Assembly: GCF_003073045.1 (NCBI RefSeq)
Contig: NC_037596.1
Location: 15,131,012-15,195,011 of the forward strand
From: Pomacea canaliculata
Lineage: Eukaryota > Mollusca > Gastropoda > Architaenioglossa > Ampullariidae
DNA length: 64,000 nt
Reading direction: 5' to 3'
The notes beneath the pieces were generated by a model. It worked only from the letters and a program-made list of their open reading frames with translations. It did not search any database and was not told the DNA's origin. Every line of letters begins with the position of its first letter. Within the stretch, counting starts at the first letter, position 1. The translations under genes were made by a program, and so were the position numbers. Positions 11,511 through 62,830 of this stretch are shown piece by piece.

Positions 11511-11857
11511 TGTTAGGCACAGGTGGCTAGCAATAGGTAGGCAGGGATTATTGCCCTTACAATCATGTGAGTGTGTTTGCTGCGTCGTGGTTTGGCGTCA
11601 GGACCCGACGTCATACTATGACGTAATTTTAGATTTACGTAAAGTGAAAATGTTTTGGAAGACAGCAGACGGCTGGGAGAAGTGACGAGAGGCGGACGGA
11701 GTGTGTGGAATGTTCGATTTGGATCTTGTGTGTTGATCCCAGACAATATATTCGTGGTCGTCGACTAGGTGTCTGCCAAGTAAGCACTTACCCTATTAAG
11801 AACCGGAACTTGTTAGTGGTTCCCCTAAGAGTTTTGTTCGTGGACATCAGCCAAGTG
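11511..11857 (+). mobile_element. LTR-like dispersed repeat, copy 1 (fossil, possible solo LTR)
   Basis: This block aligns at moderate identity with the reverse complement of 54674-55077. It begins TGTTAG and shares, for example, GATCTTGTGTGTTGATCCCAG and GTCGTCGACTAGGTGTCTGCC-like blocks in the same order. It has no coding capacity. The TG start, length of about 350-400 bp and lack of tRNA boxes fit a solo LTR, but no flanking coding region or target duplication was seen, so the class is inferred. The two copies differ throughout, so both are old. Confidence 0.5.
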
Positions 11858-12840: not shown

Positions 12841-14737
12841 TTAGAACAATCTTGCTCCACAGCTCTCTGTGTAATTAGAATCTCTAAAAGTGTCCTAGAG
12901 GATAATGTTATGATTGTAACTATACCTTGTCATCCACTGTGTACCCTTGCCACGTTGATCAATCAATCCAGGTAACCTGCAGTTGGTGACAAAAGATACA
13001 GGCATGTCCAATGATACATTGTCCGACATGACTTCATATCCTGCTAAAGACAAACCAGTCTGGTTAGAAATAACTGATAGAAAAACTCCCTAGTGCATTT
13101 TTTCATCTAAGAAATAGACCTCCAGGATATGCACGAAATATTGCAATGGCCGCTCCTAACACCTGTGGTGTACTGTATGTATGTGACTGTATGTATGTGT
13201 TTTGATTGGCGTGACAATCAGTAGACAGGAGACACTCACCTGCGCTACACGGTGGCGAGCGCTCTATTGTACGGTTTGATTGCCTCTCTTCTTCTTGTGT
13301 TGGGACCCAGAAGTCGCAAAAAAATTCGCGAGTCGTCCTCAATCTAAGATTTCTTATATGCACCTAGTTAGACAACAATATAAAAACAACAATTTGTGGT
13401 CAGCACGTTAAGAAAGCGTATTACGTACTACAGCCACTACTTTAAAACATCTAAACTGATACAGTTTCTTTACCCTTCTTTAGCAATCTAATTCCTTCGC
13501 TGTTTGTAAATTGCAATGGTAAATAAAATGTAATGGACAATGAAAGAGGCCGTCAGCCATAAAAGGGAGATCACTCTAGCGAAAAATATAGAAGAATATT
13601 AGCGGACATGACAGTGAAATGATGTTGTGTAAGTGTTGATGTGAGCGTAGATGCCAGAAAAAATTAGTTTCCTAGCCAAGGTTTTTTTTTCTCTGAGTAC
13701 GGGCAATTGGTTAGAGCTCTTGTGATCGAGGACTGCATCTAGATGAATCCTCTATCGCCTTCAGTGACAGACCCAACAGGGAATTTGTTTATCTTGAACT
13801 CTTTCTGCATTCCGATAGTTTACACTAGGGAACAGTTTAACTGTTGTTTTATCTCTTGTCTATAATCTTTACTTTCAAGACGTTTTTATGACATCTTCAG
13901 CATTCTTTAAGCCAGTTGCGTACATTCATTTCTGGATGTTTATAATTGAACTGGAATCTTAAAAGAGAACGATTCAGTACATATGATGACTACGTAAAAG
14001 CTGCCTAACGGTTTAGTGTCAAAAATGTTTATTTACCTTTTCGAGATGCAAGCCAGGGGAATCGCCAGTGTTATCATGATAGATTCTGATAAAGCATACG
14101 TCGCTTAAGTTAATCTCGTCGCCTACATCGAAGCTGTCTCGGGCACCTTGCCGAAAGTCGTTGAAGAGCCAAACGTCTAATAATATTCCATCGGATTGTC
14201 TGCCATTTGCGTCAATGAGGATAATGTACACACTGGCGTCAGTATCGGCGTGCTCAATATCCGATGTGTACGTATATATAAACCAACGTGTTCTTAGAAG
14301 ACATCATCATCATCATCATCATCATCTTGATCATTTGGCTGCTTTTAAGTAGGCCTAGTATGTTGTCTATTCGACTATATTAACAGAGCACACATACAGA
14401 CCACAATCAAATCTACAAACACACTTTTACCGAATTTGTCAACAAGCCACCCTAGACACTAATTGGGGAGGTTGTTACTTCGCCATTTCAACTATCAGAC
14501 CAGCTTAGCCGTCTGCTAAAGACGCCTTCTTTTAAAGGAGGATACCTGGTACATATATTTTATGTGGCTAGCGTTTAAATATTAAAATTACAACTCTTTA
14601 AAATTAGAATACATCATGCTATATGCATTTATTATCTCCTATTTTAATTATTCCTTATTTTACTTACCTCTTGTATAGAGAGCACCATTGACACCAAAAC
14701 CTACAAGAAGCCAGAACAGAGATGCAATTCGCCACAT
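12841..14737 (-). CDS. Secreted PLAT-domain protein
   Basis: Minus-strand gene. Exons in transcript order: 14737-14668 (ATG, signal peptide MWRIASLFWLLVGFGVNGA, donor GTAAGT), 14292-14037, 13363-13240, 13043-12926 and 12883-12841 (TAA). The second exon matches the PLAT/LH2 pattern: WFIYTYTSD, a TDASVYIILIDANG strand, RDSFDV and IRIYHDNTGDSPGLHLEKV, continued in the third exon by the strand ending FFCDFWV. PLAT domains are beta-sandwiches that bind lipids or partner proteins; with a signal peptide and no membrane segment this one should be extracellular. A cysteine-containing extension of about 65 residues follows. Exon 1 ends in phase 1 while the exon at 14292 needs phase 2, so a small exon between 14300 and 14660, next to an (ATC)n repeat, is probably missing from this model. 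It is unrelated to its Ig-like neighbours. Confidence 0.8.
13700..13795 (+). repeat. Degraded SINE-like fragment
   Basis: Contains a weak A-box-like TTGGTTAGAGC and a body block resembling GACAGACCCAACAGGGAA, reminiscent of the SINE at 9769. No clear B box. Lies in an intron of the PLAT gene. Confidence 0.3.
14302..14326. repeat. (ATC)n microsatellite
   Basis: About eight ATC units just upstream (transcript sense) of the PLAT exon 14292-14037. It fills that frame with stops, fixing the 5' limit of the exon. Confidence 0.85.
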
Positions 14738-17889: not shown

Positions 17890-19435
17890 ATGATTAAAAT
17901 GGTTTTCTTCTTGCTACTGTTCGTTGCTTGTACCCAAGGTAAGGTATATTCTTCAAGATATTGTTTTTAAGGTAGGTGGGTTCACTTAAGAACGATATTG
18001 TTTTTACCATGTAATTTGTGTGGACAGGACAGCATTTATGTTTGTTATTTTGTAGATAAATAAAAACTGCTCTTTTAAAACTTTGTAAGATTAACGTAGA
18101 AATAAAATGTGATCCCGGAGCAGGCACTGGTGGGATAGAATGTCTACATCTTCTTCACCATTAAGTTATACCTTTTTTGCATAAATTAGAAAAAAATATA
18201 AAATGTATTCAGTGTTACTGGATTTTTGTTATTGAGTGATATTCTCTCTGTTTGTGTAGGTGCTATATATATATTTCTCTCTCTGTGTGTTTGGGAGGGT
18301 GTCTATGACACAGGAACACAATGTGATGTACTTGGAGGGAACACCCTAAAATGCATATTTCCCAACAATGTCAACTCCACGCGAACAGACTTTGCCGCCT
18401 ATTTCTATCCCGATGACAATAATTATCCAGGTACATTGTTATATAAATATAATTATTTCTAGGAGTTTGTTTTGAAAACACATTGTGCTGTTATTATTTA
18501 AAGCAAAAAGTAATATAAAGTGCAAAAGTTTTGATAAAAGACTTGTTATCTACAGGATGCATGGATGTATATCATATGTTTACTGCAATGAGTTATGAAG
18601 ACACTAGCTGACAACTCCATTTCAGAAGTACAGAAAATAATTAAGTTTTAAAAAAATTAAATAGTGTAATGCTAGTCTAATGTTTTAGTGATGCCTATTT
18701 AAAAACAATCTGAAATGATTGTGTTGCAGAGCTGCTTATTGACTGTGGATGGGTGGGTGACAGGCTTCAGTGCATCCAAAAGAAAGGTTTCAGGTGCATG
18801 AGACCAGTGTCAAACATTGCCGAAATCAGACTGCATACACGGTTTGCTGTGAAAGCTGGAAAATTTGGATGTATAGCTCAGGGTGTTAGCCATGAAGATG
18901 CCAAACTTTGTCAGTATACTAGGAGCCAGCCTGAAGGAAATGACGAGAGCCTGCATGAAGAAGAAAAGAACTACAGACGTGAATGGGTTAGAAAAAGCCT
19001 GTATAAATCTCTGACAAAGAGCCAGTTTATAGAAGACACACCAAACAGTCATCTTTATCCTTTTGGTAAGCATAAGAGCAGCTTGGCACTACTGGTAGCA
19101 CAATTACTGTACATATCGATATTTCACCTGAAATATTATACTGTGATATAATAATGAACTATAGTGGATGGCAATTTAAATTAATAACGTAATATGTAGG
19201 GAATTTTATTTTTTAATAGTTGCTATTTTCTTCCACTTTTTGTGGTTTATGTATTTTTATTTTAGTTGTAACTAATCTGCATCTTTACTCTGCAGACAAA
19301 GACTTACCTCCAACTATAGTTGTATCTGTCTTCGGAGCATTTCTTGTGGTCTTATTCGTCTTGAATTGCCTTTTGCGGTACAACAGTCTTATTCATAAAA
19401 GTAAATGCAATTTTTGTACTTATTCAAAAGCATGA
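17890..19435 (+). CDS. B1: single-Ig family-B membrane protein with long stalk
   Basis: Exons: 17890-17938 (signal peptide MIKMVFFLLLFVACTQG), 18314-18430, 18730-19065 and TM 19296-19400, with read-through to TGA at 19433-19435 (213 residues). The second and third exons form one Ig-like domain split by a phase-1 intron: the first half has CDV...LKC and AYFYP, the second half W-x(6)-C, an FxCxxPVS block and KFGC at the YxC position. Domain 2 exons present in B2-B4 are absent. Instead the third exon continues for about 46 very charged residues to a later donor. The TM exon encodes about 20 hydrophobic residues, then LLRYNSLIHK. The tail could instead be spliced, for example to 20295; I could not decide. 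First of the B genes, followed closely by B2. Confidence 0.68.
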
Positions 19436-21991: not shown

Positions 21992-24900
21992 ATGATGAAA
22001 AGTTTATTGTGCTTCCTTCTTTTGCTTGTGTCTCAAACACAAGGTAGGTCGATGACGTGTTTTACTTATTTCTGAAGATATCAAACGTAATTACAGTTTT
22101 CTGTTGCTGTGGTCATAATAAGTTGATATGTGAAACTTTCGACACATTATATAGATACTTAATAATGCAAAGCACATAATTTTTTCTGATTATTAAGAAG
22201 GTTAAATGAGATATAATTCTGACTGACTCAGTTTGTAAACACTTATAAGAGGTAGATGACTGACCTTCATCACACATTATTGGATATGTACAGATTATAT
22301 ATATATATTATGTGTAAATGTGTCTGTTGTAGGTAGAACAGTAACCCAATGCGATACAACTGACAGAAGGACCTTAAAGTGTTTCTTTCCAGTAAACATC
22401 AACTCTACACGCAAAAATTTCGAAGTGTACTTTTATCCAGAGAAAGGCGACGAAGGTAAATTACCTTCCAAATTAAATATGCATAATTTGGTTAAATTAT
22501 TTGTTATCTACTACTTTTATTCTAACATTGATTCACGTTTTGTTTTTGTGGAATGAATGCTAGCAATTTAATTGAATGTATTATGTTGTGTTTACTTAAG
22601 TGTGATAGTTAAGTTTTGATGGCTTAGGATCTCAACATAAATTTTGGCAACATTTACAAACACAACATCTACAGACAGAAACACATATAAACAAACAGCT
22701 TATTATGTAAAAATTAAATCATATTTTACAGTCGCGCTGGTTGACTGTATCTGGGTGGTGGACGAGCTTCGTTGCATCACACAGGAAGGCTTTGAGTGCA
22801 AGAAGCCTGTGTCAGAAGTTGCAGAAATCAGTGTACCTGCACGGTTTGTAAATCAGTCCGGAACTTACAAATGTATACCTGATGGTTACAGCACCGACAG
22901 CATCCAACCCTGTCAATTTTACCAAACCGAGAATGAAAAGACTAAAGAAATGTTTCCTCAAACGAAAGGTAAATTTCAATCACTCTGTTGAAGAAAATAA
23001 TTAAAAAAAAAATGTTTACCTATATACTGACATATACAAAGATTGAAAATTACATAAATGCACCAGTTTAACAATCAGTGGTCCATGGCGAGTTTTATGA
23101 CCAATACATTAGCAATGGTCTCTGAATAATTTGAGCAGAACATGTCATAGACAAAGTTAATTCATATTCCACGAAGCATGCTTAGCCGCTTGTATTTATG
23201 TTGACTTCTTCTTCCAGACAAGGAACAATCTGCATTCACAAATTGCGAAGCAAGCATAGCTTCGGAAGGATCTCACGTGACTTTGCAGTGTAGGTTTTCG
23301 GTTACCATTGACAGCTTCACTGTTAATCAGCATGCAGGTAAGTTTCATTAGATGAAAGTATTTTATAGTAAATACTTAAAATGCAGTAATTACCACCCTT
23401 CTTCAAGCATAATATAGGATGAAGCTTTTGTTTACATGTGATGCCAACGCATTGCACATTTGTTTATATTTCACATATTATTTGCACTTTTCACTACAAT
23501 GAAATTTTTTTTTACAAAATATAATCATGTAAACTTTAGATAACCATATGATCTTTTTTAGGTGTTTTGGCCAACTACACCAAATCAGAATGTCGAAACT
23601 CAGAAAGGTGTCAGTATACGGTTGAAGACCCATACGAAGTATTCACCGTGAAGCTGGACATGTTAGAGGATCCATATGGCGAGTACCAGTGCCACCCAGG
23701 TCACATGCCATCGCTTTCGTTTGATGTCAAAACCTGCATCGTAACTAAACAGGATGAAAGTAAGATGACATTTAAAGCCTGGCTAAAATTCTTTTGCTCG
23801 CATATATACCGGAAATTCTACTTTACATATTCTATGATGATGATGATGATGATGATGAAGAAAAAAATATAGGAATATTTAATTCTTATATTGTCTATGC
23901 TCCTGAATGCACTCAATTATAAGCACCTCTGTATTATTGCATAAAATATCTAACTGGTTTTTTTTTTTTTTTAGATGAGGGAAAGTCATAGGAATCGTTT
24001 AGATGTGTTGTAGGTGGGGAACATACTATTTAATGTGTTCACCAGCATCACAAATCTGGTGGGGCCTAATTCTCTGTGTATATTTTACAATTTAATAAGC
24101 ACAAGCGCTTTACTGGCAGAAGAGGACAAGAATCAAATTTTATACATATGAAATTCCATCTCTTTTGTTTAATTACAATTGCATGATATTCAAACTTAAA
24201 ACTTTTTTTTGCTAAAGGCTCATCTGTCCCAGTTATTGCGTTAGTATTGCCTATCGTCGTTATCATCATCGTATTGATGACAATAGTTCTGCTGGTGTTT
24301 CTCCGACAAAGAAGGTATTTGTAATTTCTTTTTAGTTATTTAAAATGAAGACAGTGTTTTCTCGTGTTTTGAAAATAGAATGTATCAAAGTGTACATTTG
24401 AAATATTATAGGAATTTAAAGTAATAACCTAACATGGAGGGGCAACATACACATGAACTCTTTACGCAAAAGAAGAAAATGACAAGAGCACAAAATCGAA
24501 CACTTTATGTAAATAACAACAATAAATAATAAACATTAGCCTCTTTGTATACATATGCTTTACCCAGAGGTCCTTGTAAGTAAATTTTAGAACTTTAACC
24601 GAAAAGCAAAGCTACGCAGTCTTGCTAAACGAAGCAAAGAAAATGGAGAAACAAATTAAAGAGTGTTGTACTGAAAAACTTTAGGTCAAAATAAATAATA
24701 CTTACGAGAAGAATGAATCAGCATTCACCGTTTATCTAGCATGAATCGTCACAGATGTCTTGAAAGTATCTCTCTCCTAAGAAAAAAAAAACCTTAGTAA
24801 ATTGGGGGAAATGACCTCCACTGGTAATGGTCCTACACACTTCTAGTGATGCTCAGGTATTCGCCATGTTTTTAGCTTTGCTTGCGCTTCCTGCTAACGA

Positions 24901-25539
24901 ATTTTTAAACGTGGAACAGAATCCTCCCTACTGATGTCAGGAGAGACAATTGTCTCCCTTTGTTCATTGAAAAAAATGCTGACTATTGGATCGGATTCTT
25001 TCTGACATTTTCTTAATCCTAATAACTGCAATTACCCCTAAACACTCACTACCAAGTTTTAAATGACAAATTAACGCTTAAGGGTCTTATTTACGATTGT
25101 AAATCTACTTCGTTTATAAACACTAGGTTTAATTTTATCATTTCTTAGCTAATTTTTCAGTCGTTTGTCTCACACCTGTTTTAAAAACTATACAATCAAA
25201 AATGTAGTATAAAATATGTTTTACGTATTCATTTATATCGTTAACAACTGTGGGTGTTATTTAAAGCATGTGAATTTATTTTACTCCACCCAGTGGTTTA
25301 TGTCAAACAGTTAACCCCATTTTTCACAATTACATATTTTGGTAGAATATTTACTTCAGATCGAATAATAAGAAAATGCTGTCACGAATCTTTTCTTGGA
25401 AAGAAACATTTGTGTAACTAAATTGTTTTAGTTATTAATTATTTTTATTTTCAGGAAATACGCAAAAATAAGGCGGAAAGCCAGTGAAGACTTCCAGAGA
25501 GGTCAAGTTTCAAATGACTTTGTGTTTTTGTCCGTGTAG
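21992..25539 (+). CDS. B2: two-Ig family-B type I membrane protein
   Basis: Exons: 21992-22043 (signal peptide MMKSLLCFLLLLVSQTQG), 22333-22455, 22732-22968, 23218-23337, 23562-23759, TM 24218-24314 and tail 25455-25539 (TAG); 303 residues with every junction GT-AG and in phase. Domain 1 (residues about 18-137) and domain 2 (138-243) are each split by a phase-1 intron after the C strand. Each has a B-strand cysteine (LKCFFP; LQCRF) and an F-strand YxC (TYKC; EYQC) plus extra cysteines. TM residues are about 247-271. The tail is basic then acidic, has KYAKI but no canonical ITIM, and ends FLSV. It should act at the cell surface; the ligand is unknown. NST and NYT glycosylation sites are present. 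Domain structure is clear; the role as an immune or recognition receptor is inference. Confidence 0.85.
23834..23857. repeat. (GAT)n microsatellite
   Basis: About eight ATG/GAT units in the B2 intron after the domain 2 exon. Confidence 0.85.
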
Positions 25540-30004: not shown

Positions 30005-31663
30005 ATGGAAACACGACTTGTGGCTTTTCTTATTTTCTTTACAGGAAGTGTAAACAGCAATACTATCACTTGTGAGTATACCAGCATTTTACTCAATCAG
30101 AAAAACTTTGAACAGCATTTATGTTACATATTATCTGTACAGAGATTATTCTCATATATATATATATAATGCAATAAAACTAACAAAACATTATCTCGAC
30201 ATTAGAATTTTTGTTTGTGACCCAATGATGCTGATTTTATTCACCAATGGCAAAACGAGTTGTTAAGGAAAACACACTTTTGTGTATTTTACAGGTACAC
30301 CACCCGACTCAAATATGTCGTCTGATGAGAACCGCGAATGTGAAGAAGACAAATACACCAATTTCAGTTATCCACTGACATGGACAACAATTGAGCATTC
30401 GGAGGACTTTCGTATTGAAATAAAGATTTGTGACAATGGGACACTGCTCATAGCTTGCAGGTGCCGATGGACCTCCAGTTATAAACCAACCTGCAAACGA
30501 CTAGTCAATGATTCCGTCTGCTATGCTGATAATTCTCAAATGGATTTATCATTACTTGTTAGAAGAACATATAATGAGATCAGGTGGCTACTTTTTAAAC
30601 ACAACTCAACCCCAGTAGTAATGAAGCACACGGCGTTACAAGTCACTTGTAAGTTTGTTTGTTTTTTTAAAATTGTTAAATTCTCTCAAATCAATTTTAA
30701 CATTTTATTCATGCTATCATGTTGTGATGACTGAAAAATTCTTAAACACTGTATTTTGTGTGGAAATTCATATAGCAAACTTTAGATTTGTTCAATGTGA
30801 ACAGTAATAAACAGTTACTAGCATTATTAAAGATTTTATACACCATCGTAAGTGTATCTTTGTTCACAGACCCAGCCAGAGTGACAGGACTGAGTGTCAA
30901 TGACCAAGATGTTAACGGTACACACATTGTTGACGAGAACCAGGAGGTCTCTGTCTCCTGCTCATTTGTCAATGGAAATCCTCCAGTCAATATTCGCATG
31001 GTGGACGAGCGAGGAAACATTTTGTGTTCTACAAAATACAAAGAAGGACCTCTTGTCCTTTCTCTTGGTGTGTTTCACTGTCACAACGTGTGGCCGGTCA
31101 TTGGATGTGAGGCGCAGGGTTCGGAACTCAATAAATCTGTGGCCATACTTATTAGATGTGGGTGTTCTGAAAGTTGTTATTGCTATCTATAACAGATTCA
31201 CATAAAAACATAAATAAATTCATCATCAGCAACAACAATAAGATCATAATCAGTATCATGACTTCGTTTTTGTTTTTGTGTTCTATATAATTTTTTCTGT
31301 TCAGGCGCCCCTCAGCTTTCCTACATCACTAATCAAGTCTCGGATTTAAGAAGGATTTTAGATGGAGGTCTGACATTTGCCATGAAATCCCACAAAAGCG
31401 ATGTGAGGAAATGTCTGATGGCCCAAGTGCAGCCAGAAACTATGACCAAGGAAGTGAACTGTGAAGTAAGTGGACATGCTCCAAAGTTCACGCTGACACT
31501 GAGTTTTGTCGATAAATCCTGGATTGGAGAGGGGACTTGGACAGTGCAGGTCATGAGCGAGATGGGTCCCTCAAGCATCACTTTCCAATTATTTAACAGC
31601 AAAGGTAATATCACAAACATGCATTTACTTTGTTTTTTTTACTTACTGAAATGTATACGGTAA
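30005..31663 (+). CDS. A3: secreted three-domain Ig-like protein
   Basis: Exons: 30005-30071 (ATG, signal peptide of 22 codons), 30295-30648 (domain 1, 118 codons), 30870-31157 (domain 2, 96 codons) and 31305-31604 (domain 3, 100 codons). All are phase 1-1 with GT-AG ends. Domain 1 has IEIKICDNG, CRCRW, CYADNS and PVVMKH. Domain 2 has VSVSCSF with NGNPPV and FHC then GCEAQG. Domain 3 has VNCEVSG and WIGEGTWTVQV. Past domain 3 the frame stays open 19 codons to TAA (31661-31663), adding a short hydrophobic run; otherwise the donor GTAATA at 31605 would need a distant exon. No TM exon or ITIM tail was found up to B3, so a secreted product of 355 residues is most likely. It pairs with B3 in the duplicated A-B unit. 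Confidence 0.78.
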
Positions 31664-35745: not shown

Positions 35746-38700
35746 ATGAATCACGCCTACTACTTTTGCTGCTGCTTTCTTCTCCCTCTTATAGCAGCTA
35801 GAGGTAAGCCCCGCAAGTTAAAATGACTGTAATGGCACGTTAGCATTTTTGTCAATTTTATTTTGGACCTGTTGCTAATATTCCACAGTAGTAGTCAAAA
35901 CTTTGAAGGAAAACAAACTTAGCAACAATACAACACAACATGTATTTTTTTAATGTCGTCTGAATATTGCTCTCTGTGTGTTTGTGTATGTGCGATAACG
36001 CTTGTGCATGTGTGCTTTAAACAAATGGATGCATGTACTTTTATATGTAGAGGCATATATAATACAAATCTGCAAAATTGTGTCATTGTGTTAAGTAATA
36101 TAGAATAAATAATTTGTTTACCCATATTTTGGGTTATGAAATTTAAAAAAATGTCACTGTATTCTTGTGTATGCAACACTAGGAATGTCTTTAACTTAGT
36201 GCTTTATAATGAACGATATTTGTTGCCTCCTTTTCAGGCAGTGGACAAACAAAGTGTACGGCAACAGATGAAGGAAACTTAAAGTGCCAGTTCCCGGAAA
36301 ATATTAACTCAACACAAAGAGATTTTTCGATTTATTTTGATCCTGACCATGGAAGTGAAGGTAACTGATTTGCAAATTTGTAAGCTCCACTAACTTTGTT
36401 TTTAGTAATGATGTGATGCAACTTGACTTCTGTCTTTTCCGTGGTTTTTCAGTACCATTTTAATTTATTAGTAAATATAATGTTCAGATCCATGGAAAGG
36501 AGTGAATTTTTTCAAATTCAACAGATTGTGTCTCTCACATTTTTCTTTATTCAATAAGAACTTTTACTTTAAATAAACAACTGCTAATATAAATAAACAC
36601 ATTTCATGTGACTCTTCCATACAAAATGAAATATGAATCTTGCCGCCTCGCACTTAGAAAAACAAAATAAAGAAATGTAAAGTACACTGTTATAACAAAG
36701 TTTTATGAATAACATAATGCGTTTTTAACATTTTAAAGCGACAAGCTTATTATTAAAGATGCATTATTCTCTTTTATGTCAAAAAGGGTAAATGAGACTT
36801 TACTGGACCAAAAAGTACCCAAAAGGAAATACCACAAATATTTTGTGCCTTTATGTAAATCGCGAGAGACAAATACTGACATGCAAATCTATTTAAATTA
36901 TGAGAAAATGCGTTACATTTTAAAAAATATTCTATAAGCATTGTCTGTAATTTTTATATTTTTTTTTTAAATTAAACATTTACAGAACAATTAGTTGCAT
37001 GTTCATGGGTCAAGTCGCAACTTTACTGCATCACACAAAAGGGATTTGAGCATGAAGGCCTGGTGTCAGAGATTGCAGTCATTACCATACCCAGGAGTTT
37101 TGTAAGTAGAAATGGGAGCTACAGATGTGAAAATGTCGACTACCCGTTAACTGCCAAATCCTGTCGGGTTCCAGCCAGTCGAGGTAAGCATAATCTTTGG
37201 AAGTTATAGTAGGTTTGCTACATGCAAAATTAGTTTAAGTAGCAATGAAGAAAAAATTTAAAAATCATAAGCTCTCATGAAAGGATGTTTCCTCTCAGAT
37301 TTCGGAGTTTGCGCTTTAGCCTAGTAGCTTTTTTTAGTCACTAATGCTAATAAGTTATGATTTTGAATAAAAATCATTAAAAAGACTGCCCTCGTCTGAC
37401 AAGAGACCGTGATCATGCCTTACAAGAGTTTTATTATCGATAAGCAAACAAAAAGATTATCAGCTGTTATAGTCAGGTGGCTGTTTTACTGATAGGCAAA
37501 GGGGAACAACTGGATCAAAAAAATGTGTCTACTATTTTGTAATCTGATAGCGTTCAAGTTTTTTTCAACAGCTGCATCGTTTACATATCTGTGTTGTTGA
37601 CTTTTTTCTTTTTTTTTTAATCGTAAATGTAAAAACTGTGTAGGTCTGCTCCACAGTTGAGAAATGTTAATATAAAATGAACTCTAGCTAGCATCTAACT
37701 GGTTGTAGCATGTGACATTTTACATTTATATGTAATCGTAATTTGATACTAAAAACAAAAGTCTTTATATTTATATGTAAAGGAAACGTTTTTTAACTTA
37801 TTAATGAATTTAGTATGGAAATTGTTATGTTAAATTTAAAAAAAATGTTGATTATGATTAACCCTCTTTGTTGTTAATCCGTAGTATTTTAATAAATGTT
37901 AATATATACCTAGGTCACTATTTTTCAATAATTTGATGATACAAATTTTCATGAATAGAGAAACTATTTCAACCACATTAAACAAAATAACCATTAGACG
38001 GTATACATTGATGATTAAAAAATTAGCACAAACTGGCTAAGAATACATACCAACTTTCAGAATTCTCTATTTTGGGAAATTTTTATTACTTTTTTTGGGG
38101 GGGGTTTCAAGCTTATCACACAAGACGTAGCTAAGGGATTTTACTAAATTGGAACTGTTAATCGAAACACAGTGATTCAATAAAGCATTACTTAACTGTC
38201 ATAAAATAAATTTTAAAAAAGGCAAAAAAATAAAATAAATAAAAAATAAAAAAGTAAAGTTTTACTAGTATAGAGGAGAATCGGTGTGTATGCAATGTGT
38301 ACCTTTTGGTTTGCAGATGTTAAACAGTCTGCAGTTTGTGAGAAAAATTCAACTTTTGACGGTAACCAGTTTAGTTTGAAATGCAACTTTCCCTTCACCG
38401 TTGAAAGCTTTAGTGTCATCTATGACACGTGTAAGTTTAAATCTTTTCGTAATGCATGTATTTTGTATTGATGCTTACTAATATTAATGTATGTCATTTG
38501 TTACATATGTACCATATTTAAGCTGAAGTTTAGTAAAGTAATTTATCCTTTTCTAGCTATTTGGGCCAAGTACACGAAATCATCTTGCAAAGAGATCTAC
38601 CCCGTATGTAATTACAAGGAGGAGGAAGGCAAAAGTACATTCACTTTGACGTTGAATACGACAAAACATCTATACGGCGAGTTTGTATGCCAAGCAGATA

Positions 38701-38786
38701 GCTTTCCTTCTGGACTTGAAGTCAATGGATGCATTGTGGCTATACAAACACGCACTGACGGTAAGACCCTTTTTATAATAATAATA

Positions 38787-38863
<77 letters not shown>

Positions 38864-40448
38864 CAACTTTTATATACCCTTACATTTTTTGTCTGTTTTA
38901 CTTTTTCTGACTTTAAGCTACTTCCGTTTCTCTTCTCATTTGAAAAATATACTTACAAATATTCCTTTCCAAAGTACTAAACTATTAAAAACTAAACTTG
39001 TATTATTTTTTCAACGATGCACTCTTTAACATCGATTTAATAAGTTTTTGTTCGAAAATACTTTTATGCCTTCGAATGTCTGTTTAAATATTGCCTGTTG
39101 GAATTTTTTATCGTCATATGACCACATGACAGCTTTCAGCTGTAAGAAACCACTGTCGCCAGCATAAACGTGTAAAGCACATTTTTAAATTTATTTTGTT
39201 TTTGTTTTTTTTTGTTTTTTTTCACTCAAGACTCATCTGTATCATCCGTGGTGTTAATCGCTGTCGTCTGTTCTGTCGTACTGGTTATACTGACACCGGC
39301 AGTGGTGGTTCCTGTAGTACTTCTCATGAGAAAAAGGGTTTGTTTTATTTGTAATGTTATTAAATTCAATAATATTTTTTCCATTAAACGTAATGTTTTT
39401 TGTTACTTTACAAACTATTTGGCAAAACTTTACTCTCTTCCGATTATCTTATCCTTATTCTTTGCTCCCATATACTTTGACGCAAAATTCCACATATACA
39501 CACACACAGATCACAGGACAGGATAACTCTGTGGAAAGTAGAAATACATAGTGCATCTCAGTTTTAACCGGAACTGTTGATTAGAAGAAAAAAGAGGCCA
39601 GAAGAGCTACCTGGTAAGACCAATACTGCTGGCATTGATATATGTTGGTTTCTGGAAAAGGTATTTGTTATAAATGTATTTAAAAAAGACATAACTGTCA
39701 AACACCCTGCCAGTGGTATTTACTACGCCGTAAATATAGTGCTTTTCCATGTAGAAGGTGTTGCCATGTCAGATTGCCAGATCATGCACAATCATACTTT
39801 TTATAGTAATCCTGTAGAACTGGACCAATCTTGCGAATCTGGCAAAAGAAATACTTCCCACGCTACATTTCTCATCTGAGGTCACTGAAATTCCTTTCAA
39901 TGAACACCTAAAAGATTTCACTAATTCCTTCGGTTGCTCCTGAAATAGCAGCGGGCGGATTGAGACTTTACGAAAATCTGCCACGTGGTATTTAGTCTTC
40001 AAAACATTTAGTTCCACACTGTTGGAATTATTTCATGACTTTCCACTTATTGTCTCTTTATGGTACATCGACAGTTCTTCTTTGATACAAGACCAGCATC
40101 CATAGTGCAAACAAAGAACTTCATCTGCACCATGAACCTATGAATAAGCCTAAATAATAAGAAAGAGTGTAAATAAGACAGGAGACAAACCGTATCCATA
40201 GAAACAGCGACACAAATTTACACAACGCGGATTCAATCAAAACTTGATTTTGAATTGAAGAACAATCCTCTCATATATTGAAAACAAAACAAATTGCTTG
40301 TAAGACTATTTATCTTAAAAACATCATTTTCAATTAAATTCAATTTTTTGTTTTCAATTAGGGACAAGAAGAAGAAAACAAAGGAAAAATGAAAGGCACT
40401 CAAAAACGTCTTCTTCAGGACACATACATCAAAATCCTTCAGCTTTAG
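35746..40448 (+). CDS. B3: two-Ig family-B type I membrane protein
   Basis: Exons: 35746-35803 (signal peptide MNHAYYFCCCFLLPLIAARG), 36238-36360, 36986-37183, 38317-38430, 38557-38760, TM 39231-39337 and proposed tail 40362-40448 (TAG); 296 residues. Domain 1 (20-126) has LKCQFP, W-x(5)-YC and SYRC. Domain 2 (127-232) has LKCNFPF, WAKYTKSSC and GEFVC. The intron within each domain and the phases match B2 and B4 exactly. The TM exon is valine-rich, ending LLMRKR. The tail exon has a very strong polypyrimidine tract and the right phase, giving a basic tail ending DTYIKILQL. A small alternative exon at 39585-39613 exists, so the tail is the uncertain part. B3 is the membrane partner of A3 in the A-B unit. 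Confidence 0.74.
38775..38862. repeat. (TAA)n microsatellite
   Basis: About 28 AAT/TAA units starting 14 bases after the donor of the B3 domain 2 exon. Confidence 0.95.
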
Positions 40449-40799
40449 ACATGATGTTAAACCTAAAAGCGCCTAGAATATTGTTCCACTTATTGCCTGC
40501 ACGTCGATTAGAATGTAATAGTCGTCAGGTTTCATTGAATAAGAAACAGAATTGCTTTCTAGCATTTGGTCCTCCACACCTGTTTCTCAGGCGTAATCGC
40601 TCGTAGACAGTCAAAGATGAAAATTTATTTAAAAGGTTACTGCAGCCCAACAAATCCTAGTAGCAAAAAAGACGAAGGAATAAAATAAAAACAATAATCA
40701 TGTATTCATCCAAAATGAACAAAACAGCTGCAGAGACAATTCACTGCATTACTGTTTCGTGAATGCGCCTTTGTATTGAGATGGTGATGCTTGTGGCAA

Positions 40800-43940: not shown

Positions 43941-45678
43941 ATGGACGCACTGTGCCGTGTTGTGCTCTTTCTTTTTGTATGTGGCAATGGAAATACCAGT
44001 GCCATGACATGTGAGCACATCATTTGATAATTTACATTTCTATTTTAAAAAGTTCATGACAACGTTAAATAATTTTAAAAAATGAAAATCACGTTTATTT
44101 GACAAGATGATGATGGACGTACTCTTTTATGAAAAGACCTGATATATTAGTCATAACAATAGCATTCATTGAAGATAAGACCTTTGATTGTTTCTTGCTT
44201 GTTAATTTCAATCAAGGTTTTGGCAACAACTTTATTTAATCTATATTTTTTTCTGCCAACGCCCAGTTATATAATACATTTATTATGCCATATGATTTTG
44301 TATTTTAAACTAGCGCTACAAATGGTAGTAAAAAGAAATATAAAAATTGTAATAATGTCATGTTTGTTTACCCGACTATACTTACTTTCTGCAGGTACAC
44401 CAAAAGAAACAAATCAAGATTCTTACGAGAACAGCGTACATGCAGAAAATGCTTACGCTAATTTCAGTTACCGGCTGACGACCTCAAGAATGAACGAGAC
44501 TTCAGAAGATTCCAATTTTCGCATTGAAGTAAAATTATATGACGCTGGTACACTTCGTACAGCTTGCGTATGCCTATGGCTCTCAAGAAATGATCCAGTA
44601 TGTAAAATTCTCTGGAATGATTCGATCTGTGAGGCAGATACGTCTGAAATGCATTTTTCGTTGCTTATCAAAAGAACATATACAAATATCACGTGGGTAT
44701 GCTTTCAACAGAACTACGCCCCAGTTGTTCTGAAACAGAGGACGTTACAAGTCACCTGTGAGTGAACTGTATTTGCCTAATATTTAAAACTTTTTATTTG
44801 CATATAAATGTATTTTTAAAACTGAAGTTTTACATTTTTGTATGCTGTGAAATTTAGTGATTGGTTCCAATGGTTAAAACATTTAATTTTAGTTGATGGG
44901 AAAATGTACAGTATTTGTATTTCTGACATTACAATTTTGTATTTATGATATTACAATTGTCACTGAGATTGGAAAACATATTCTCTGCAACTAGATTCGC
45001 CAAAAATCACAGCGTTGCATGTAAACGGACAGGACGTCAATGGAACACACGTTGGCGAGCAACATCAAGAGGTTAACATTTCCTGCTACTTTACTAATGG
45101 AAGCCCACTTGTCAGCATTCGAATATTGGATGACACAGGACACACACTGAGTTCCACAACACACGGACAGGGACCCCTTATGCTCTCACTTGGAATTTAT
45201 CATTGTCAGGACAACTGGCCGGTCATCAGATGCGAAGCTCTGGGCTCGGAGATAAACCGATCTGTGGCCATAGTTGTCAGATGTGAGTTTATTATTTTCT
45301 ATTCCACTCTATAAAAATTTTTGTGTCAGGTTTATGTGAATGTTTTGTTACAAATATCTTTTTGTTTCTTTAGGTCCACCTCAGCTTTCCTACATGACTT
45401 CTCAAATTGCCGATCTGAAAACAATTCAAGATGGAGGGATGACTTTTGCCATGAAATCCTATACAGGCGACATCAGGAAATGTCTCATGACCCAGGTGCA
45501 GTCCCGTTCTTCCGCCAGAGAAGTGAAGTGTGATGTACGCGGACATCCCCCACAGTTCACACTGACCCTGAGACCTTTCAATGAATCCTGGATTGGAGAA
45601 GGGATCTGGACATTGCAAGTCATGAATGAGTTGGGTGCCTCAAGCATTACTTTTCACCTTATCAACAATACAGGTTAG
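43941..45678 (+). CDS. A4: secreted three-domain Ig-like protein
   Basis: Exons: 43941-44010 (ATG, signal peptide MDALCRVVLFLFVCGNGNTS), 44395-44757 (domain 1, 121 codons), 44995-45282 (domain 2, 96 codons) and 45374-45678 (domain 3), ending GGT TAG in the exon; 341 residues. Domain 1 spans residues about 24-144, domain 2 145-240, domain 3 241-341. Domain 2 keeps NISCYF, NGSP and YHC...RCEA. Domain 3 keeps VKCDVRG, WIGEGIWTLQV and the NELGASS turn. In domain 1 a cysteine conserved in A1-A3 is tyrosine (IEVKLYDAG). The donor at the domain 3 end is weak (GTTAGG) and the stop lies three bases beyond it, so a secreted protein is the simplest reading. N-glycosylation sites are frequent. It pairs with B4. 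Confidence 0.82.
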
Positions 45679-49797: not shown

Positions 49798-52585
49798 ATG
49801 AAAGTCCTTTACCAATGCTTAATCTTGATCTCTGTAGCAACAACAGGTAAGTGAAAGCAGCAGAGGTACACAGTCAGTTTAACATTTTGACCTAATCCTC
49901 AATGTTGTCTATGGCGATTACTTCATTGGTGTTTTGAAATCCTTGCTTGATACTTTAACGATGAGGTAGATGACTATCACATCAAACCAGATTTTTTTAA
50001 AGTTCTGACCACGACAGTTCCTGCTATTTCTTGACTTGTACGTGTTTGTCTCTATGTATGATCGGGTGCAAGAGAACGAAAATCGGGTGAAGCGAGCCAG
50101 CAGGTGTTCCTTTACCCTTTGGGTGAGCTAGGCCCACCCTTCTCCTCACATTCGTTACCCTGATGTTTTGTAATCTCACGTGCATTGCAGAGATTGCAGA
50201 ATCAAAATGTGTCACAACAGACGAAAGGAACCTAGAGTGCCAGTTCCCAAAAGCTGACAATAGCACACACAAAACTTTTACGCTCATTTTTTATCCTGAC
50301 AGTGGAGGTGAAGGTAAATATATAGCGAATGATTAAGTCAAACATTTTGACTAATGCCATATGGCAGATATTTACAGAAATGATGTAAAACAGTGTGTAA
50401 CGGAAGACAAAAATAAAAAGTGTCTTTTTTTCCCTCGAATATAATGAACTTGTGCGAAAAAATATATAGTCTCTTTGGTAGGGGTGTCTTCAAAAGTGAG
50501 CTAACACAAGATATCAGTGCCGATCTGTACCAACATCTATACGATTTTATATAGCTTGTCCTAGTAATTTTCTTTGATAAATCTTTGCGTCAAAGAAAAC
50601 TAAGATTCCACGAACATTAAAGGTAATTTTAAAATGTTGTCTAAAAACTAATTGTTCTAAAATGAACTGTACAGAGCTCCTGGTTGAGTGTGTGTGGACT
50701 GGGTCGAAGTTTCACTGCATCACACAGAAAAGCTTCGAGGTTAGAGAACCGATATCAGACACTGCTGTGATCACCATTCCCAGAAACTTTTCTGACCAAA
50801 AAGGAAGTTATCGATGTATTTCTGAAAATTATACGCTTGACAGCATCATGCCCTGCTGGTTTCCGGAAACACAAGGTAAATCTCACTTTCTATGAGTTAT
50901 TTCTACTTCTATAAGTGTTACATTTAGTTCACAAGCAATCTGGAAACATATACATATATGTCGCTCTCGCTAAATATATATATATATAACAATAAAATGA
51001 TACAAATCCTCTCCCTAAGAAAAGAAAAAAAATCCAACCTCGTAATTAACTTTTTGTCCCTAAACTGTCGGCAGATTCCAAGCATTTTGCAACCTGTGAG
51101 GTGAATTCAGAATTCAGCATACGTCAAGTGATGTTGAAATGTATATTCTCGTCTAGTATTGAAGGTTTCAGTGTCATCTACAACAACAGTGAGTTTTAAT
51201 CACTTTATATATAACATGAATGCAATGGCATAATTCATTCTTTATTTTCCTCATTTTATCAAGTCATAGCAAATGCTTGCCTTTACCAAACTTTTTGAAT
51301 GAACTTTTTTATGTGCGCCCGTGATTTTGTATCAATATCAGTTCAGACTGGGTGTTATATATATAATAACAGCTTTTTCAGCGTTAATGCAATAAAGCTT
51401 ACACTGAATAAAATGATTTTTCTTACCTAGCTCTTGTAGCCAGATACACACAATCATCTTGCCAAAATTCAACTCCTTGTCACCATATACGTGAGGACAA
51501 CAAATATGTATTCATAGTGAAGTTGAATACTTCACAGTATGAAAACAGCGAATATCTTTGTCTCCCGGACAATGGTCCAGTTACATTTGAAGTGAAAGGA
51601 TGTAGTGTGGCTATGGAAAAACACACAGAAGGTAAAAGGGTTGAAAAATGCAATTCATACATTAGATCAAATGTATTTGAGATTTAGTGAGTTATCTTTA
51701 TCACGAAATATGTTTCTGTTGAAAACTTTACTTTTGTGGTCTCAGTTTCTGTTCTTAGCGTTTGGTTTTGTCTTCAGTGTCATTTTCTATGGGGCATATC
51801 TTCCAACCTCCTATTCTCAATGTTATTTCTCTCTCTTCTATCTTTCCTTAAGGGATACTCTACTAACTATAAGCCTAAGCTAAAATATTTGAAATTCATC
51901 AAAAGTGGTCAAAATTGTGATGAGAAAAAAGTACTTTAAGGTAAAATATTATGGTCATTTAAAAAATTGCAATGTCTCTTAAATGCGGAACTCAAAAGAC
52001 TTTCTAAATTTCAGAATATTTCCGTTATTTCCAAAAATGAAAATATCACCTTTGAATACCGATTACACTAGAAGGAATGAAATATTTTACCCCACCTAGA
52101 TTAATGTTGTAGTGTTTTAACTCACAGATTGAAATTTTTTTCTTGATTTTTTTTTCTTGTGTTAGCTCAAGCCTCATGGAAAGTAAATCTGACAATAATA
52201 CTACCTATTATCGGTGTGATGCTTCTAGTGTTGGGTCTCTCGCTATTTATCCGAAGAAAGGTTTGTTGTTAAGGCACCTTACTGAAACATGAAAACTGTT
52301 TTTTTTTCCTAAAGGCATTTTATAGATAAAATTATGACCTTTAAAGAAATAAAATGTTAGCAAGCATACTTTCTTAAACCTTATGTCTCATACCTGTGAC
52401 TTGATCGCTTCACATTGTTGGCATTTATTAGGTTACTGAATTTAGACAACTTTTTCACATAAATATGATTTCTATAAAATTTATTCATTTTATGTTATAA
52501 TTTTATTAAGTGCTTGCAGAGACAGGTAAGGAGATATCAGCCACAGCCACTGAGCACGGATGATTCAGCCAGTTCACTTGTATAA
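49798..52585 (+). CDS. B4: two-Ig family-B type I membrane protein
   Basis: Exons: 49798-49846 (signal peptide MKVLYQCLILISVATTG), 50191-50313, 50675-50875, 51075-51188, 51431-51631, TM 52166-52260 and tail 52520-52585 (TAA); 282 residues, all junctions GT-AG and in phase. Domain 1 is residues 17-124 (LECQFP, FYPDSG, W-x(5)-HC, SYRC). Domain 2 is 125-229 (LKCIFS, ARYTQSSC, EYLC). The TM residues are about 234-258, ending FIRRK. The 21-residue tail has a basic RQVRRY start and ends ASSLV, which fits a class I PDZ-binding C-terminus. Gene layout is almost exon for exon that of B3, 14.05 kb upstream. Surface receptor or adhesion protein is inferred from architecture; no ligand can be named. Confidence 0.86.
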
Positions 52586-52599
52586 AGGGCCTTCAAAAA

Positions 52600-53683: not shown

Positions 53684-54548
53684 CAGTGGTACCTCGACAT
53701 ACGAGTGTTTTGAGATGAGCCGCCGAGCGAGCGATATTTTGCTTCGAGATAAGAGCAAGATTTGAGATACGAGGAATCGCACACTACACCGCTGCACACG
53801 ACCCCAACATGCGGGGCGGATGTTGGTGTCGTGTGCAGCGCCTAACAGTTTCTCCCACCTCAGACTAGACCTCAGTCTGTGTGCTTGTTTCCCTCGTTTT
53901 CGAAGCATTTTTGATAAGTTGGGTTCGCGTTTTTTGCTTTTTGTACATTTACAAAACATTATCACATTTATTTTTATAACCATGGGTCCTAAGAAGAAGA
54001 TGATGTCTATTGAATTAAAGCGTGAAATCATAGAAAAACATGAGCAAGGTGTGCGAGTTATGTACGGGCGTAGCACATCAATGATGTGTACTGTGCTTAA
54101 ACAGAAGGAGTTGATAAAGGTCGTGCATCGGAGTTGTTCAACGAAACTTGCCTGACTCATTTCCGCAATATCCTGAAAGGGAGGAAGAAACAAACCTCCT
54201 TGGACTTTTTTTTTAAACGATCTGCAGGTGAAAATGAGCAAAACGTGACGAAAAAAGCGAAGACCAGTGACGAAAATTAAGCGCTTCCGTAAAAACTTCA
54301 CTTTTTCTTTTATTATGTTTTTATAGAATGTGTATTTGTTATTTATAAATAAATGTTTTTTTCTTGTAAATACATTTTTCTTATTCAAAAACACTTAACA
54401 AAAACAACTGAGGTGGTGTTTTGGGAGCTGGAACGGATTAATGGCATTTCAATTAATTTCAATGGGGAAAATTGCTTTGAGATACGAGCAATTTGACATA
54501 CGAGCAAGGTTACGGAACGAATTAAACTCGTATGTAGAGGTACCACTG
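53684..54548 (+). mobile_element. Tigger-type (pogo superfamily) DNA transposon, internally deleted
   Basis: Terminal inverted repeats start CAGTGGTACCTC and match for about 23 bases with one mismatch, flanked by TA target duplications (53682-53683 and 54549-54550). Inside, an ATG at 53982 opens a frame whose product begins MGPKKKMMSIELKREIIEKH, the start of the CENP-B-like DNA-binding helix-turn-helix domain of Tigger transposases. Most of the transposase is missing; a C-terminal piece (TSLDFFFKR) remains near 54200. At 865 bp against about 2.5 kb for full elements, it is a non-autonomous deletion derivative. Confidence 0.88.
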
Positions 54549-54673: not shown

Positions 54674-55077
54674 CACTTGACTGATATCCACACACAAAAC
54701 TTTTAGGGAAAACCACATACACCTTCCGGTTCTTAATGAGAGAAAGTGCTGAAAGGCAGACACCTAGTCGACGACTAAGAATATATTCTCTGGGATCAAC
54801 ACACAAGATCCAAAGCGAACACTACAAATAAATCCTCTGGGATCAACACACAAGATCCAAAGCAAACACTCTACACACGTCCACTCGGCCTCTCTTAACT
54901 GCCCACAGCCGTCTGCTTCCTTCCAAATAATTTTCACGCTACGTCCCTCTCAACTTGCGTCATAAAATGACGTCGGGTTCTGACGCTAACCGCGACGCAA
55001 CAAAAACACTCTCATACTGGTAAGGGCAATAATCCCTGACTAACACAGACAGGGGCAACAACCCCCTGTTCCTAACA
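54674..55077 (-). mobile_element. LTR-like dispersed repeat, copy 2 (fossil)
   Basis: Reverse-complement relative of 11511-11857 with the same block order. It may continue toward 54552, beside the Tigger element. No coding region is attached. Old, non-coding, possibly a solo LTR. Confidence 0.5.
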
Positions 55078-60011: not shown

Positions 60012-60017
60012 TTTATT
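60012..60017 (-). terminator. AATAAA polyadenylation signal of A5
   Basis: Minus-strand AATAAA 132 bases after the A5 stop. Confidence 0.5.
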
Positions 60018-60148: not shown

Positions 60149-62830
60149 TTATTTAGAAGTATCTGCATTAGTTGCAAAGAGGATGTTGGAATACTGTGTC
60201 TCCGGCACGGTCCCGATGATCACATCAGATGTTATCTTGTCTGAAAAGTCCAGTTCTCCGTAGACCAAGCCGTCAGAATTCTTCCCAACAGGTGCCTGTA
60301 GCTGTTAGAACGAGGAGAAAATCTTGTGTTTGCTATTTACTTTCACTGATACGTACAGAAAAAGCAATTCAGATTTTTTTTTCATTCAAACCGTCATTCA
60401 TTCCTTCATTCAAAAAGCAAGTGGAAGGAAATCATCAGCAAAAACTCTGTAAAGGAGGATCAGCCACTTCTTTTAAACAGGTGATACATGCAAATAAATT
60501 CAGTGTGTCTAAGATGAATTGCATTCCCAAGACACGGTAAGTGTTAAAGGTTTTGGCACCAGACAACCCATTTCTTGACAGAAAACAGTCATTCTAGAAA
60601 CAAGCTGTACATCTTCCACAGTAACTTCTACTCCCTGAAGTAAAAAAAAAAAAAACAACTTCCCAGTGGAAAATATATTATGCCTTACTAACTAAAATAT
60701 ATAAATAACTGGGGACAGAAACGTTTTACCTCAGTTGTAGCCTCCCCTGTAGCTGTGATGCAGTCGCTTCTTTCATCTGAGAAATAGTTTGCAACAAAAT
60801 TGTATGCTCATCATTTGTACTCAAAAATAAGTGCATCCTTGATTACGTAAGTCAAAAGGTAAACGAAACTAAGGAAATGTAGAACTTTTAAGCATTTTTA
60901 ATAACACTTCTAGATTAAATGACAAAAATGATGTGGAATAAAGCTAATCATATTATAATCAGCAACTTGTAAATTAATTTTCGTGTGGGTTAGTACGTAA
61001 GACTTACTTACTTGTTAGTGATAAACTGAAGAAGGCTATATTGGTAGAAAGTAGATGGAGCATTTACAACAGGCAGTCCTTTTAGTACGTATTCATTCTC
61101 TTCTTTGGGATTCTGAACGAGGGGCTATAGGGAATAGACTAGCGGTTAGAAAAAAGTCCAAGGCGTACACACGAACCAGTCTGTTGTCGCAAAATACATT
61201 TTAGCTCTTCCCAATGGACCCAGCTATAAAGTGAGTACCTGGTCTCAAGCTAATGGAACGACGGAGCTGAGATAGCAAAGGATGCTGCAGAGATGAATGA
61301 GTAATTTCGTGAAAAGTTTAGAAGAACTGTGTTTAGCCTTGAAAGGTCAGGTGTTAGTGACCTCATTTTACTCCAAGCCAGCTTTAATAGGCCGGTGCCC
61401 ATCTTCTCTTCCTCGCTGCTTTACTTTCCCCAACAATCTATGGAATCAGGTAACCATACCCGCCAGCAAGACCGACAACATTTGCTGGGTTAGTCGGGAG
61501 TTGGACCAGAGCGCTCTCGGTTAAAAGGCCAGCTCTTTAACCACTTAGCTACCCGGTTTCTTCAATGCTGTGTACCTTAGTCAACAGTTCAGGATTATAG
61601 ATGTCCAATATTATCGTTTCGTGAATTTACAAATGATGATTGAATGAAAACTTTCCAGCTGGTAAAGATTCGTTTGGGATAATGAGTTTATGCATGTGCA
61701 AGCATGTCTGTGTAGCATGAGTGTAGACAAATGAATACAATAGGATACTAAATGTTTTCTGTACTGTCCACTTTATCACTGCCATTGTTAAGGTGGTCTT
61801 TCTACAGGAATAATACATTTGTTAAAACTGATTTAAACAAGAACTGAAGGCAAATTTCAACTTATTACAAAAACAGTAAACTGAACATCAGTCTCTTTGT
61901 AGCGAACACTTATGAAGGTATGCTATAAGCTTACCCAATGGCCTTCTATTGAAAACACAAAGGATGACTGCAGCAGTGAAGATGGTAGCACAGAGCACAC
62001 ATGAAGACCCAAGGAAGAGAAAGGTTTTCCAGAACTTTAGGTCTAACAGACAAAATTTTCTTTCCGTTAAATACGTCACCACACGCAAATAATTAGTAAA
62101 ACAAATTTGAGTTAAGAAATACTGTGTTTTGCAACAACAACAAAAAAAATCGCTACCATGAGAGATAATGTATATATACTCACACGAGAATGTCTTATTT
62201 CTGAAACTGAATGTTCTGTTTGAAATCCCGATGCTATTGTTGATAAATAAAGTCCAATCTTCCTCACACCTGTCTGTAGTTAAATTAAGAGTCAAGGTAA
62301 GATCTGGAGGTTCGCCGCTGACCTTACAATTAACTTCTTTTTGGGGAAATTCCTGTGTTAAATCTCTTATCCAGCAACTGCTGATATTTGTGTGAGATTT
62401 AAGCCTGATACTCATGACTCCTTTTTCAATTATGAAATCTTCGCCATTAGTGCCAGAAGACTGAGGAGGACCTGAAAGAGTATTCAAACGTTTCTTTTTA
62501 TTTTAGTTTTGATAAACTCAAATGGTATACGAGTATAAATGTATGTCCCAACAACAAATATCATCCATGTTATAGCGCATCTCTTGCTTAAACCAATTTA
62601 TGATAAAACGATGCATAAAGTAGAAATTAAACATATAAGAGAGGTCTAATCACAACATTTCAATTGATCAACAAGTAAACTTATCATATTTTATGTGATT
62701 TCTTGTTTGATGTCGCAGGTTAGTGTGAGCAATACAGTATTAGCTGACAATGATACTCACAATTTAACATCGCACATGGAAGAAAGAAGCACAGAATAAA
62801 TAACCCGAATAAAGTGCTGTGTATCTTCAT
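60149..62830 (-). CDS. A5: single-Ig receptor with TM and ITIM/ITSM tail
   Basis: Minus-strand exons in transcript order: 62830-62761 (signal peptide MKIHSTLFGLFILCFFLPCA), 62471-62184 (Ig domain, 96 codons), 62042-61935 (TM), 60776-60730 and 60301-60149 (TAA); 221 residues, all in phase. The Ig domain corresponds to family-A domain 3 (VNCKVSGEPPDLTLTL, DWTLFINNSIG); domains 1 and 2 are absent. The TM has about 24 residues rich in L, C and A, ending FNRRP. The tail holds LVYGEL (Y185, ITIM) and TQYSNI (Y208, ITSM), colinear with the A1 tail. By analogy with vertebrate inhibitory receptors, phosphorylation would recruit SH2 phosphatases to dampen signalling; this is inference. An optional 24-nt exon (60634-60611, GVEVTVED) would also keep frame. 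It is the only intact ITIM receptor here and lies inverted at the right edge. Confidence 0.85.
61121..61285 (+). repeat. Old SINE copy
   Basis: Diverged relative of the 9769 SINE: TAGACTAGCGGTTAGA in the A-box position and the CCAATGGACCCAGCT body block. Lies in the A5 intron, facing the next SINE. Confidence 0.55.
61318..61556 (-). repeat. tRNA-derived SINE, inverted copy
   Basis: On the minus strand, A box TAGCTAAGTGG (61551-61541) and B box GGTCCAACTCC (61507-61497) are followed by the same body as the 9769 copy (AAAGCTGGCTTGGAG, TGAGGTCACTAACACC). In the A5 intron. Confidence 0.72.

Follow-up and report, generated by a model that had tools for sequence, protein, structure and literature searches.

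A five-exon gene, probably of an invertebrate, with a paired ITIM-ITSM tail that resembles the tail of PD-1

The right end of the window, by which we mean the whole 64-kb stretch of DNA that was analysed, contains a five-exon gene on the minus strand, termed A5. The hand-built and script-checked gene model specifies a product of 221 residues, with a reading frame that is open across all five exons; each of the four introns has GT-AG borders, and the intron phases match (1, 1, 1 and 0). Exon 1 (62761-62830, minus strand) carries the start codon and a signal peptide called by eye (MKIHSTLFGLFILCFFLPCAMLN) and ends at the donor GTGAGT in phase 1. After a gap of 289 nt, exon 2 (62184-62471, minus strand; phase 1-1) encodes the sole ectodomain, which is domain D3 of the gene family described below and contains five N-glycosylation sequons; no D1 exon was matched in A5. 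Exon 3 (61935-62042, minus strand) encodes a transmembrane (TM) segment that was also called by eye (FWKTFLFLGSSCVLCATIFTAAVILCVFNRR), and its DNA aligns with the TM exon of a second gene, A1. A short juxtamembrane linker is encoded by exon 4 (60730-60776, minus strand; acceptor CAG, donor GTAAAA, phase 1 to 0), and the remaining cytoplasmic tail by exon 5 (60149-60301, minus strand), which runs from an acceptor CAG to the stop codon TAA, with an AATAAA at 60017, 3' of the stop. Inspection of the spliced protein by eye gave a type I single-pass topology, with the signal peptide and one TM segment.

A candidate alternative last exon of A5 was observed at 60509-60634 (minus strand), with an acceptor CAG and a frame that continues from exon 4. 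It has 41 open codons followed by a stop, an openness that may be due to chance, and, if used, it would leave the tail lacking the tyrosine pair described below. Intron 3 contains a tRNA-like, SINE-type sequence at about 61480-61560 (minus strand), recognized by eye; the ARAGORN and Rfam scans returned no tRNA or Rfam match in the window. A bacterial promoter and terminator scan near A5 also found nothing, which is uninformative for a eukaryote.

A5 belongs to a set of five A-type genes or gene fragments in the window (A1 to A5), in which the ectodomain exons D1-D2-D3 are present in A1, A3 and A4, D1 alone in A2 and D3 alone in A5. Tail exons were matched in two of the five (A1 and A5), which are also the two genes with an identified TM exon. 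The ectodomain exons of A1 span 2275-3775 on the plus strand (D1, 2275-2634, 360 nt; D2, 2931-3214, 284 nt; D3, 3472-3775, 304 nt), and its TM exon (4323-4460, plus strand), when joined onward, gives a tail with the sequence DDIYNNV upstream of an ITIM-ITSM pair. As assembled, A1 is frame-broken, because phase 1-1 exons must have a length that is a multiple of three and the lengths of D2 and D3 are not. In addition, its likely signal exon (about 1310-1383, placed by eye and by alignment to the A5 signal peptide) has no in-frame ATG, and a scan of positions 1-2270 revealed no alternative signal exon. A1 may be a pseudogene or an assembly error. A2 (9305-9643, plus strand) is a single D1 exon, and its vicinity gave no match to D2, D3 or the tail. 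A3 (30309-31604, plus strand; D1 30309-30647) and A4 (44409-45673, plus strand; D1 44409-44756) have open D1-D2-D3 exons, and no TM or tail exon was found for either: a plus-strand scan for phase 1-1 TM exons, which misses exons of other phases or splice quality (an E-type TM segment near 24220 escaped it), found none in the interval between A3 or A4 and the gene that follows, and about 3 kb of DNA downstream of both genes was also inspected by eye.

The E-type genes form another receptor family on the plus strand (18735-19400, 22734-25538, 36991-40605 and 50680-52587), with different cysteine-containing domains, for which one weak I-set match below the Pfam cut-off was obtained. By eye, they have TM segments and short tails with no ITIM pair. 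A paired activating partner for A5 among the E-type genes was ruled out by these short tails and by the lack of a charged TM residue (by eye), and no activating partner was recognized in the window.

Exon 2 of A5 is homologous to D3 of A1, A3 and A4 (tblastn E 9e-15 to 4e-10). Nine sequences were submitted to Pfam (spliced A5; D1, D2 and D3 of A3; D1 and D2 of A4; and three E-type domains), and none of them reached the cut-off, unlike typical vertebrate Ig receptors, which reach the Pfam Ig cut-offs. The sub-cut-off matches of the D2 sequences included weak Ig models. The structural model of A4 D1, built with three relatives in the alignment, had a pLDDT of 85.4 and 43 PDB matches at E<=0.001, among them V-type Ig domains from SCN4B (E 9.4e-5), numerous CTLA-4 chains, myelin P0, LAG3 and a CD4 complex, with SCN4B, CTLA-4 and P0 in the lead. 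Because this model matches V-type Ig domains, the A-type family is predicted to be Ig-like, with a V-set-like outermost domain D1 that is missing from A5. For A5 D3, likewise aligned with three relatives, AlphaFold2 gave a beta sandwich of low confidence (mean pLDDT 70.1) with no PDB match at E<=0.001; most of the 50 matches listed were titled antibody or Ig, and copper-binding proteins and sulfite dehydrogenases were also present, all at E >0.001. A search of PDB sequences with a D3 profile gave a best E of 0.016 (CD4), which is not significant. The homology and the low-confidence model suggest that the single domain of A5 is weakly Ig-like. Thus, within the domain make-up proposed in the original prediction, the signal peptide, TM segment and tail are upheld, and the 'one Ig domain' is a weak assignment with no Pfam Ig match.

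The A5 tail contains the ITIM LVYGEL and the ITSM TQYSNI at 60268-60182 (minus strand), C-terminal of the TM segment. The two tyrosines, Y185 (GLVYGELDF) and Y208 (ETQYSNILF), are 23 residues apart and are the sole tyrosines of the tail. When the ITIM is defined as (S/I/V/L)xYxx(I/V/L) and the ITSM as TxYxx(V/I) (PMC12151841, in excerpt), this one cytoplasmic tail carries both motifs. The last exon of A1 (6028-6180, plus strand) encodes a homologous tail with LIYGDL and TQYADI, the pair lying at 6067-6153 with its tyrosines also 23 apart. We scanned all six frames of the 64 kb for [ILV]xYxx[LV] followed by TxYxx[IV], with tyrosines 16-40 residues apart and no intervening stop. This strict scan, which is blind to pairs interrupted by introns, detected two pairs in the window, the A5 and A1 tails, against a mean of 0.2 and a maximum of 2 in 100 dinucleotide shuffles; since the shuffle maximum was also 2, the count by itself is just moderately unusual. 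A looser pattern gave 13 pairs versus a shuffle mean of 7.6 and a maximum of 14, which is not significant, indicating that loose motif matches in the window are noise. However, the A1 and A5 tail exons are homologous (tblastn E 5.9e-14, 57% identity across 44 residues) and constitute one of four inverted-repeat pairs of at least 60 nt in the window; because of this homology, the motif pair exceeds chance. The predicted motifs and spacing are therefore present in the spliced A5 protein, and the counterpart claimed for A1 resides, at the same spacing, in a homologous exon.

Comparison of the two tails over 48 aligned codons revealed 15 identical codons, 10 silent differences and 23 residue-changing differences. 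Both motifs and their spacing have been kept despite changes at 23 of 48 residues, including variable positions within the motifs. A1 and A5 agree in having L at -2 in the ITIM, T at -2 in the ITSM and F at +5 in each motif. Residue identity between the two genes is 25/48 in the tail versus 36/94 in domain 3. The NG86 estimates were dN 0.32, dS 1.18 and a ratio of 0.27 for the tail, and dN 0.55, dS 1.91 and a ratio of 0.29 for domain 3, with dS >1, and hence near saturation, in both comparisons. The tail and D3 are under similar constraint, and a focus of selection on the tail is without support from dN/dS. Because the two ratios are alike, the proposal that a tail block is conserved across paralogues with greatly divergent ectodomains is just mildly supported; it describes A1 and A5, but these are only two genes, one of them frame-broken, and conservation is only slightly higher in the tail than in the ectodomain.

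The A5 tail resembles that of PD-1, for which the consensus motifs are (I/V)(D/E)YG(E/V)L(D/E)F and (T/V)EYATIx(F/Y) (PMC12151841, in excerpt). As in PD-1, a proximal ITIM, in which A5 has the YGEL of human VDYGEL, is followed by a distal ITSM with F at +5, and a single ectodomain is joined to a TM segment. The sequences LVYGELDF and TQYSNILF of A5 agree with the PD-1 consensus at 6/8 and 4/7 specified positions, a close but incomplete match, and LIYGDLDF and TQYADIHF of A1 agree at 5/8 and 5/7. The differences are that the PD-1 tyrosines, Y223 and Y248 in the excerpted source, are 25 rather than 23 residues apart; that the residue at pY-1 is D/E in the PD-1 ITIM and V or I in A5 and A1; that it is E in the PD-1 ITSM and Q in A5 and A1; and that the PD-1 ectodomain is V-type, whereas A5 has D3 alone and lacks the V-like D1. 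At the nine PD-1-consensus positions beyond the ITIM and ITSM definitions, A5 and A1 each match five, compared with an expected 0.70; under independent sites, the probability of at least five matches is 2e-4, a value that is optimistic because PD-1 was picked post hoc. PD-1 was absent from the PDB sequence matches to the tail, which comprised five distinct sequences (best E 0.28, RMI1).

The likeness is shared with other receptors. Over the two motif hexamers together, A5 matched PD-1 and Siglec-9 at 7/12 positions each and Siglec-7 at 5/12, with corresponding values of 7/12, 6/12 and 4/12 for A1. Among nine receptors scored by hexamer, some represented by part of their ITIMs, NKRP1B equals PD-1 for the A5 ITIM hexamer, NKRP1B and NKG2A score above PD-1 for the A1 ITIM hexamer (4 versus 3), and Siglec-9 scores above PD-1 for the second-motif hexamer of A5 (4 versus 3). 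By sequence, PD-1 thus appears to be as near a match to A5 as Siglec-9, the Siglecs having been compared by hexamers alone and PD-1 also at +4 and +5, where A5 agrees with its consensus. Like A5, Siglec-7 and Siglec-9 have an ITIM followed by an ITIM-like or ITSM motif, and their published tyrosine positions (Y437/Y460 and Y433/Y456; PMC7226588, in excerpt) bear out the spacing of 23 that the original prediction had given. The same spacing is found in PECAM-1 (Y663/Y686; PMC12356826), and the second motif of Siglec-7 is described as not a strict ITSM (PMC10906256, in excerpt). The Siglecs have a V-set domain in which, according to the excerpts, an arginine binds sialic acid, whereas A5 is without a V-type exon; membership of A5 in the Siglecs was ruled out by the missing D1/V-set exon and the lack of a Pfam Ig match for the spliced protein. 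An ITAM reading of the A5 tail was also ruled out, as its tyrosines, 23 apart, are too widely spaced. An ITAM consists of two YxxL/I motifs about 6-12 residues apart.

We propose, with somewhat better than even confidence, that A5, a short type I receptor, is inhibitory through a tail that docks an SHP-2-type tandem-SH2 phosphatase, and that the likeness of this tail to those of vertebrates most likely arose by convergence. If A5 is expressed in immune cells, its engagement by ligand close to an activating receptor would allow a Src-family kinase to phosphorylate both tail tyrosines; the distal TQpYSNILF would then hold the C-SH2 domain, the proximal LVpYGELDF would bind the N-SH2 domain, and the phosphatase, once opened, would damp activation as in PD-1. 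According to the excerpted source on PD-1 (PMC12151841), F at pY+5 aids the binding of both SHP-2 SH2 domains, T at -2, A or S at +1 and I at +3 suit the C-SH2 domain, L at +3 suits the N-SH2 domain, and no benefit to either domain was found for G at +1 in the ITIM. When the motifs were scored against the quoted preferences, with the last residue of the C-SH2 preference taken as +3 since that preference is quoted one position longer than its stated range, the ITSM matched the C-SH2 preference at 3/4 positions in each gene and the N-SH2 preference at 1/5 (A5) and 2/5 (A1), and the ITIM matched the N-SH2 preference at 3/5 (A5) and 2/5 (A1) and the C-SH2 preference at 1/4 in each. Exchanging the two assignments gives scores that are no higher, so the order in which the ITIM engages N-SH2 and the ITSM engages C-SH2 fits the proposal. 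SAP-type switching by the A5 tail is less likely, since to our knowledge no SAP orthologue exists outside vertebrates.

A functional tail might instead serve other SH2 or PTB proteins (SHIP, SOCS, Grb2-like proteins or PLC-gamma), in which case A5 may not be inhibitory or may act by another route. The paired motifs, F at +5 and the spacing of 23 suit a tandem SH2 protein, and SHIP has one SH2 domain; on the other side, the A1 tail carries the extra DDIYNNV site, and an amphioxus receptor, BbLcLRR, bound SHIP1 more than SHP1/2 (PMC8211107, in excerpt). We regard the use of such partners as rather unlikely. It is much less probable that the ITIM/ITSM reading is incidental and that YGEL and YSNI serve endocytosis as sorting signals of the YxxPhi type: both tetrapeptides conform to YxxPhi, but L at -2, T at -2 and F at +5 have been kept in A1 and A5. 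YxxPhi does not require L or T at -2 or F at +5.

We give equally little credence to the view that A5 is a decaying gene fragment with a relic tail, having lost two ectodomain exons and having a broken sister copy. The retention of D3 alone out of D1-D2-D3, the three frame or start problems of A1 and the possible extra exon at 60634-60509 would agree with decay, but all five A5 exons are open, the splice sites are GT-AG and an AATAAA follows the stop. Least probable, in our view, is a fish or other vertebrate host with an ordinary ITIM-ITSM receptor tail: the CpG ratio given below would be compatible with fish, but none of the nine sequences reached a Pfam Ig cut-off.

Under the SHP-2-type docking that we favour, convergence under shared SH2 preferences would be the simpler reading of the likeness between the A5 tail and vertebrate tails, because the motifs follow a short grammar, the searches with A5 ectodomain sequence gave no connection to PD-1, and the V-like domain is missing. 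A more ambitious interpretation, which we consider doubtful, is that an invertebrate cluster contains checkpoint-like receptors with an SHP-2 docking tail of PD-1 grammar and, in the members of full length, an outermost domain resembling the V-set; checkpoint-style inhibition would then have two origins or be older than the divergence of protostomes and deuterostomes. Should the A5 tail bring in an invertebrate SHP-2, the logic of two motifs seen in PD-1 would be one that tandem-SH2 phosphatases force on receptors of unrelated origin. The invertebrate would then offer a natural experiment on the importance of the flanking residues G+1, D+4 and F+5, and an invertebrate receptor cluster would gain a defined signalling output. 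Similar immune brakes may have evolved more than once.

Oyster inhibitory Ig-domain receptors probably carry ITIMs. In print, CgIgIT, CgIgIT2 and CgSiglec-1 of the oyster are reported as inhibitory Ig-domain proteins (PMC11999971, PMC5877582, both in excerpt), which weakens the earlier suggestion that the system is under-described. CgIgIT2 has five Ig domains and A5 one, and the likeness to the oyster proteins is by description in these excerpts, not by tail sequence; one review terms the CgIgIT2 motif an ITAM, yet a title cited there says inhibitory receptor. BbLcLRR, from an invertebrate chordate, is like A5 a receptor with ITIM-like tyrosines, and it was inhibitory and phosphatase-binding in human T cells (PMC8211107, in excerpt); unlike A5, it has an LRR ectodomain, the motifs DDYATV, HDYSEV and HDYDDP, and an ITSM-like site in the ectodomain. 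No gastropod ITIM-ITSM receptor was named in the titles or abstract starts among the matches listed, the subscription literature being largely outside their scope. The term 'ITIM' is absent from PMC7494358, PMC11426442 and PMC12297450. By description in the excerpted sources, the A-type genes are like the snail GRC and PTC2, which are clusters of diverse single-pass TM receptors (PMC4361660, PMC7494358).

Several other features were observed in the window. At 14019-14303 (minus strand), an exon that has no relation to the receptor cluster encodes a PLAT/LH2 domain (Pfam PF01477, E 5.8e-11). The segments 11592-11777 and 54755-54989 contain inverted repeat pieces, 77-92% complementary and 43 kb apart, which perhaps represent a dispersed mobile element, and a 47-nt tandem repeat occupies 54780-54870 inside the second of them. 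An open frame at 53766-54155 (plus strand) with the sequence MGPKKKMMSIELKREIIEKHEQGVRV had no Pfam match; we take it to resemble the start of a Tigger/pogo transposase. The CpG observed/expected ratio of the window is 0.66, which exceeds amniote values and fits an invertebrate but is by itself also compatible with fish.
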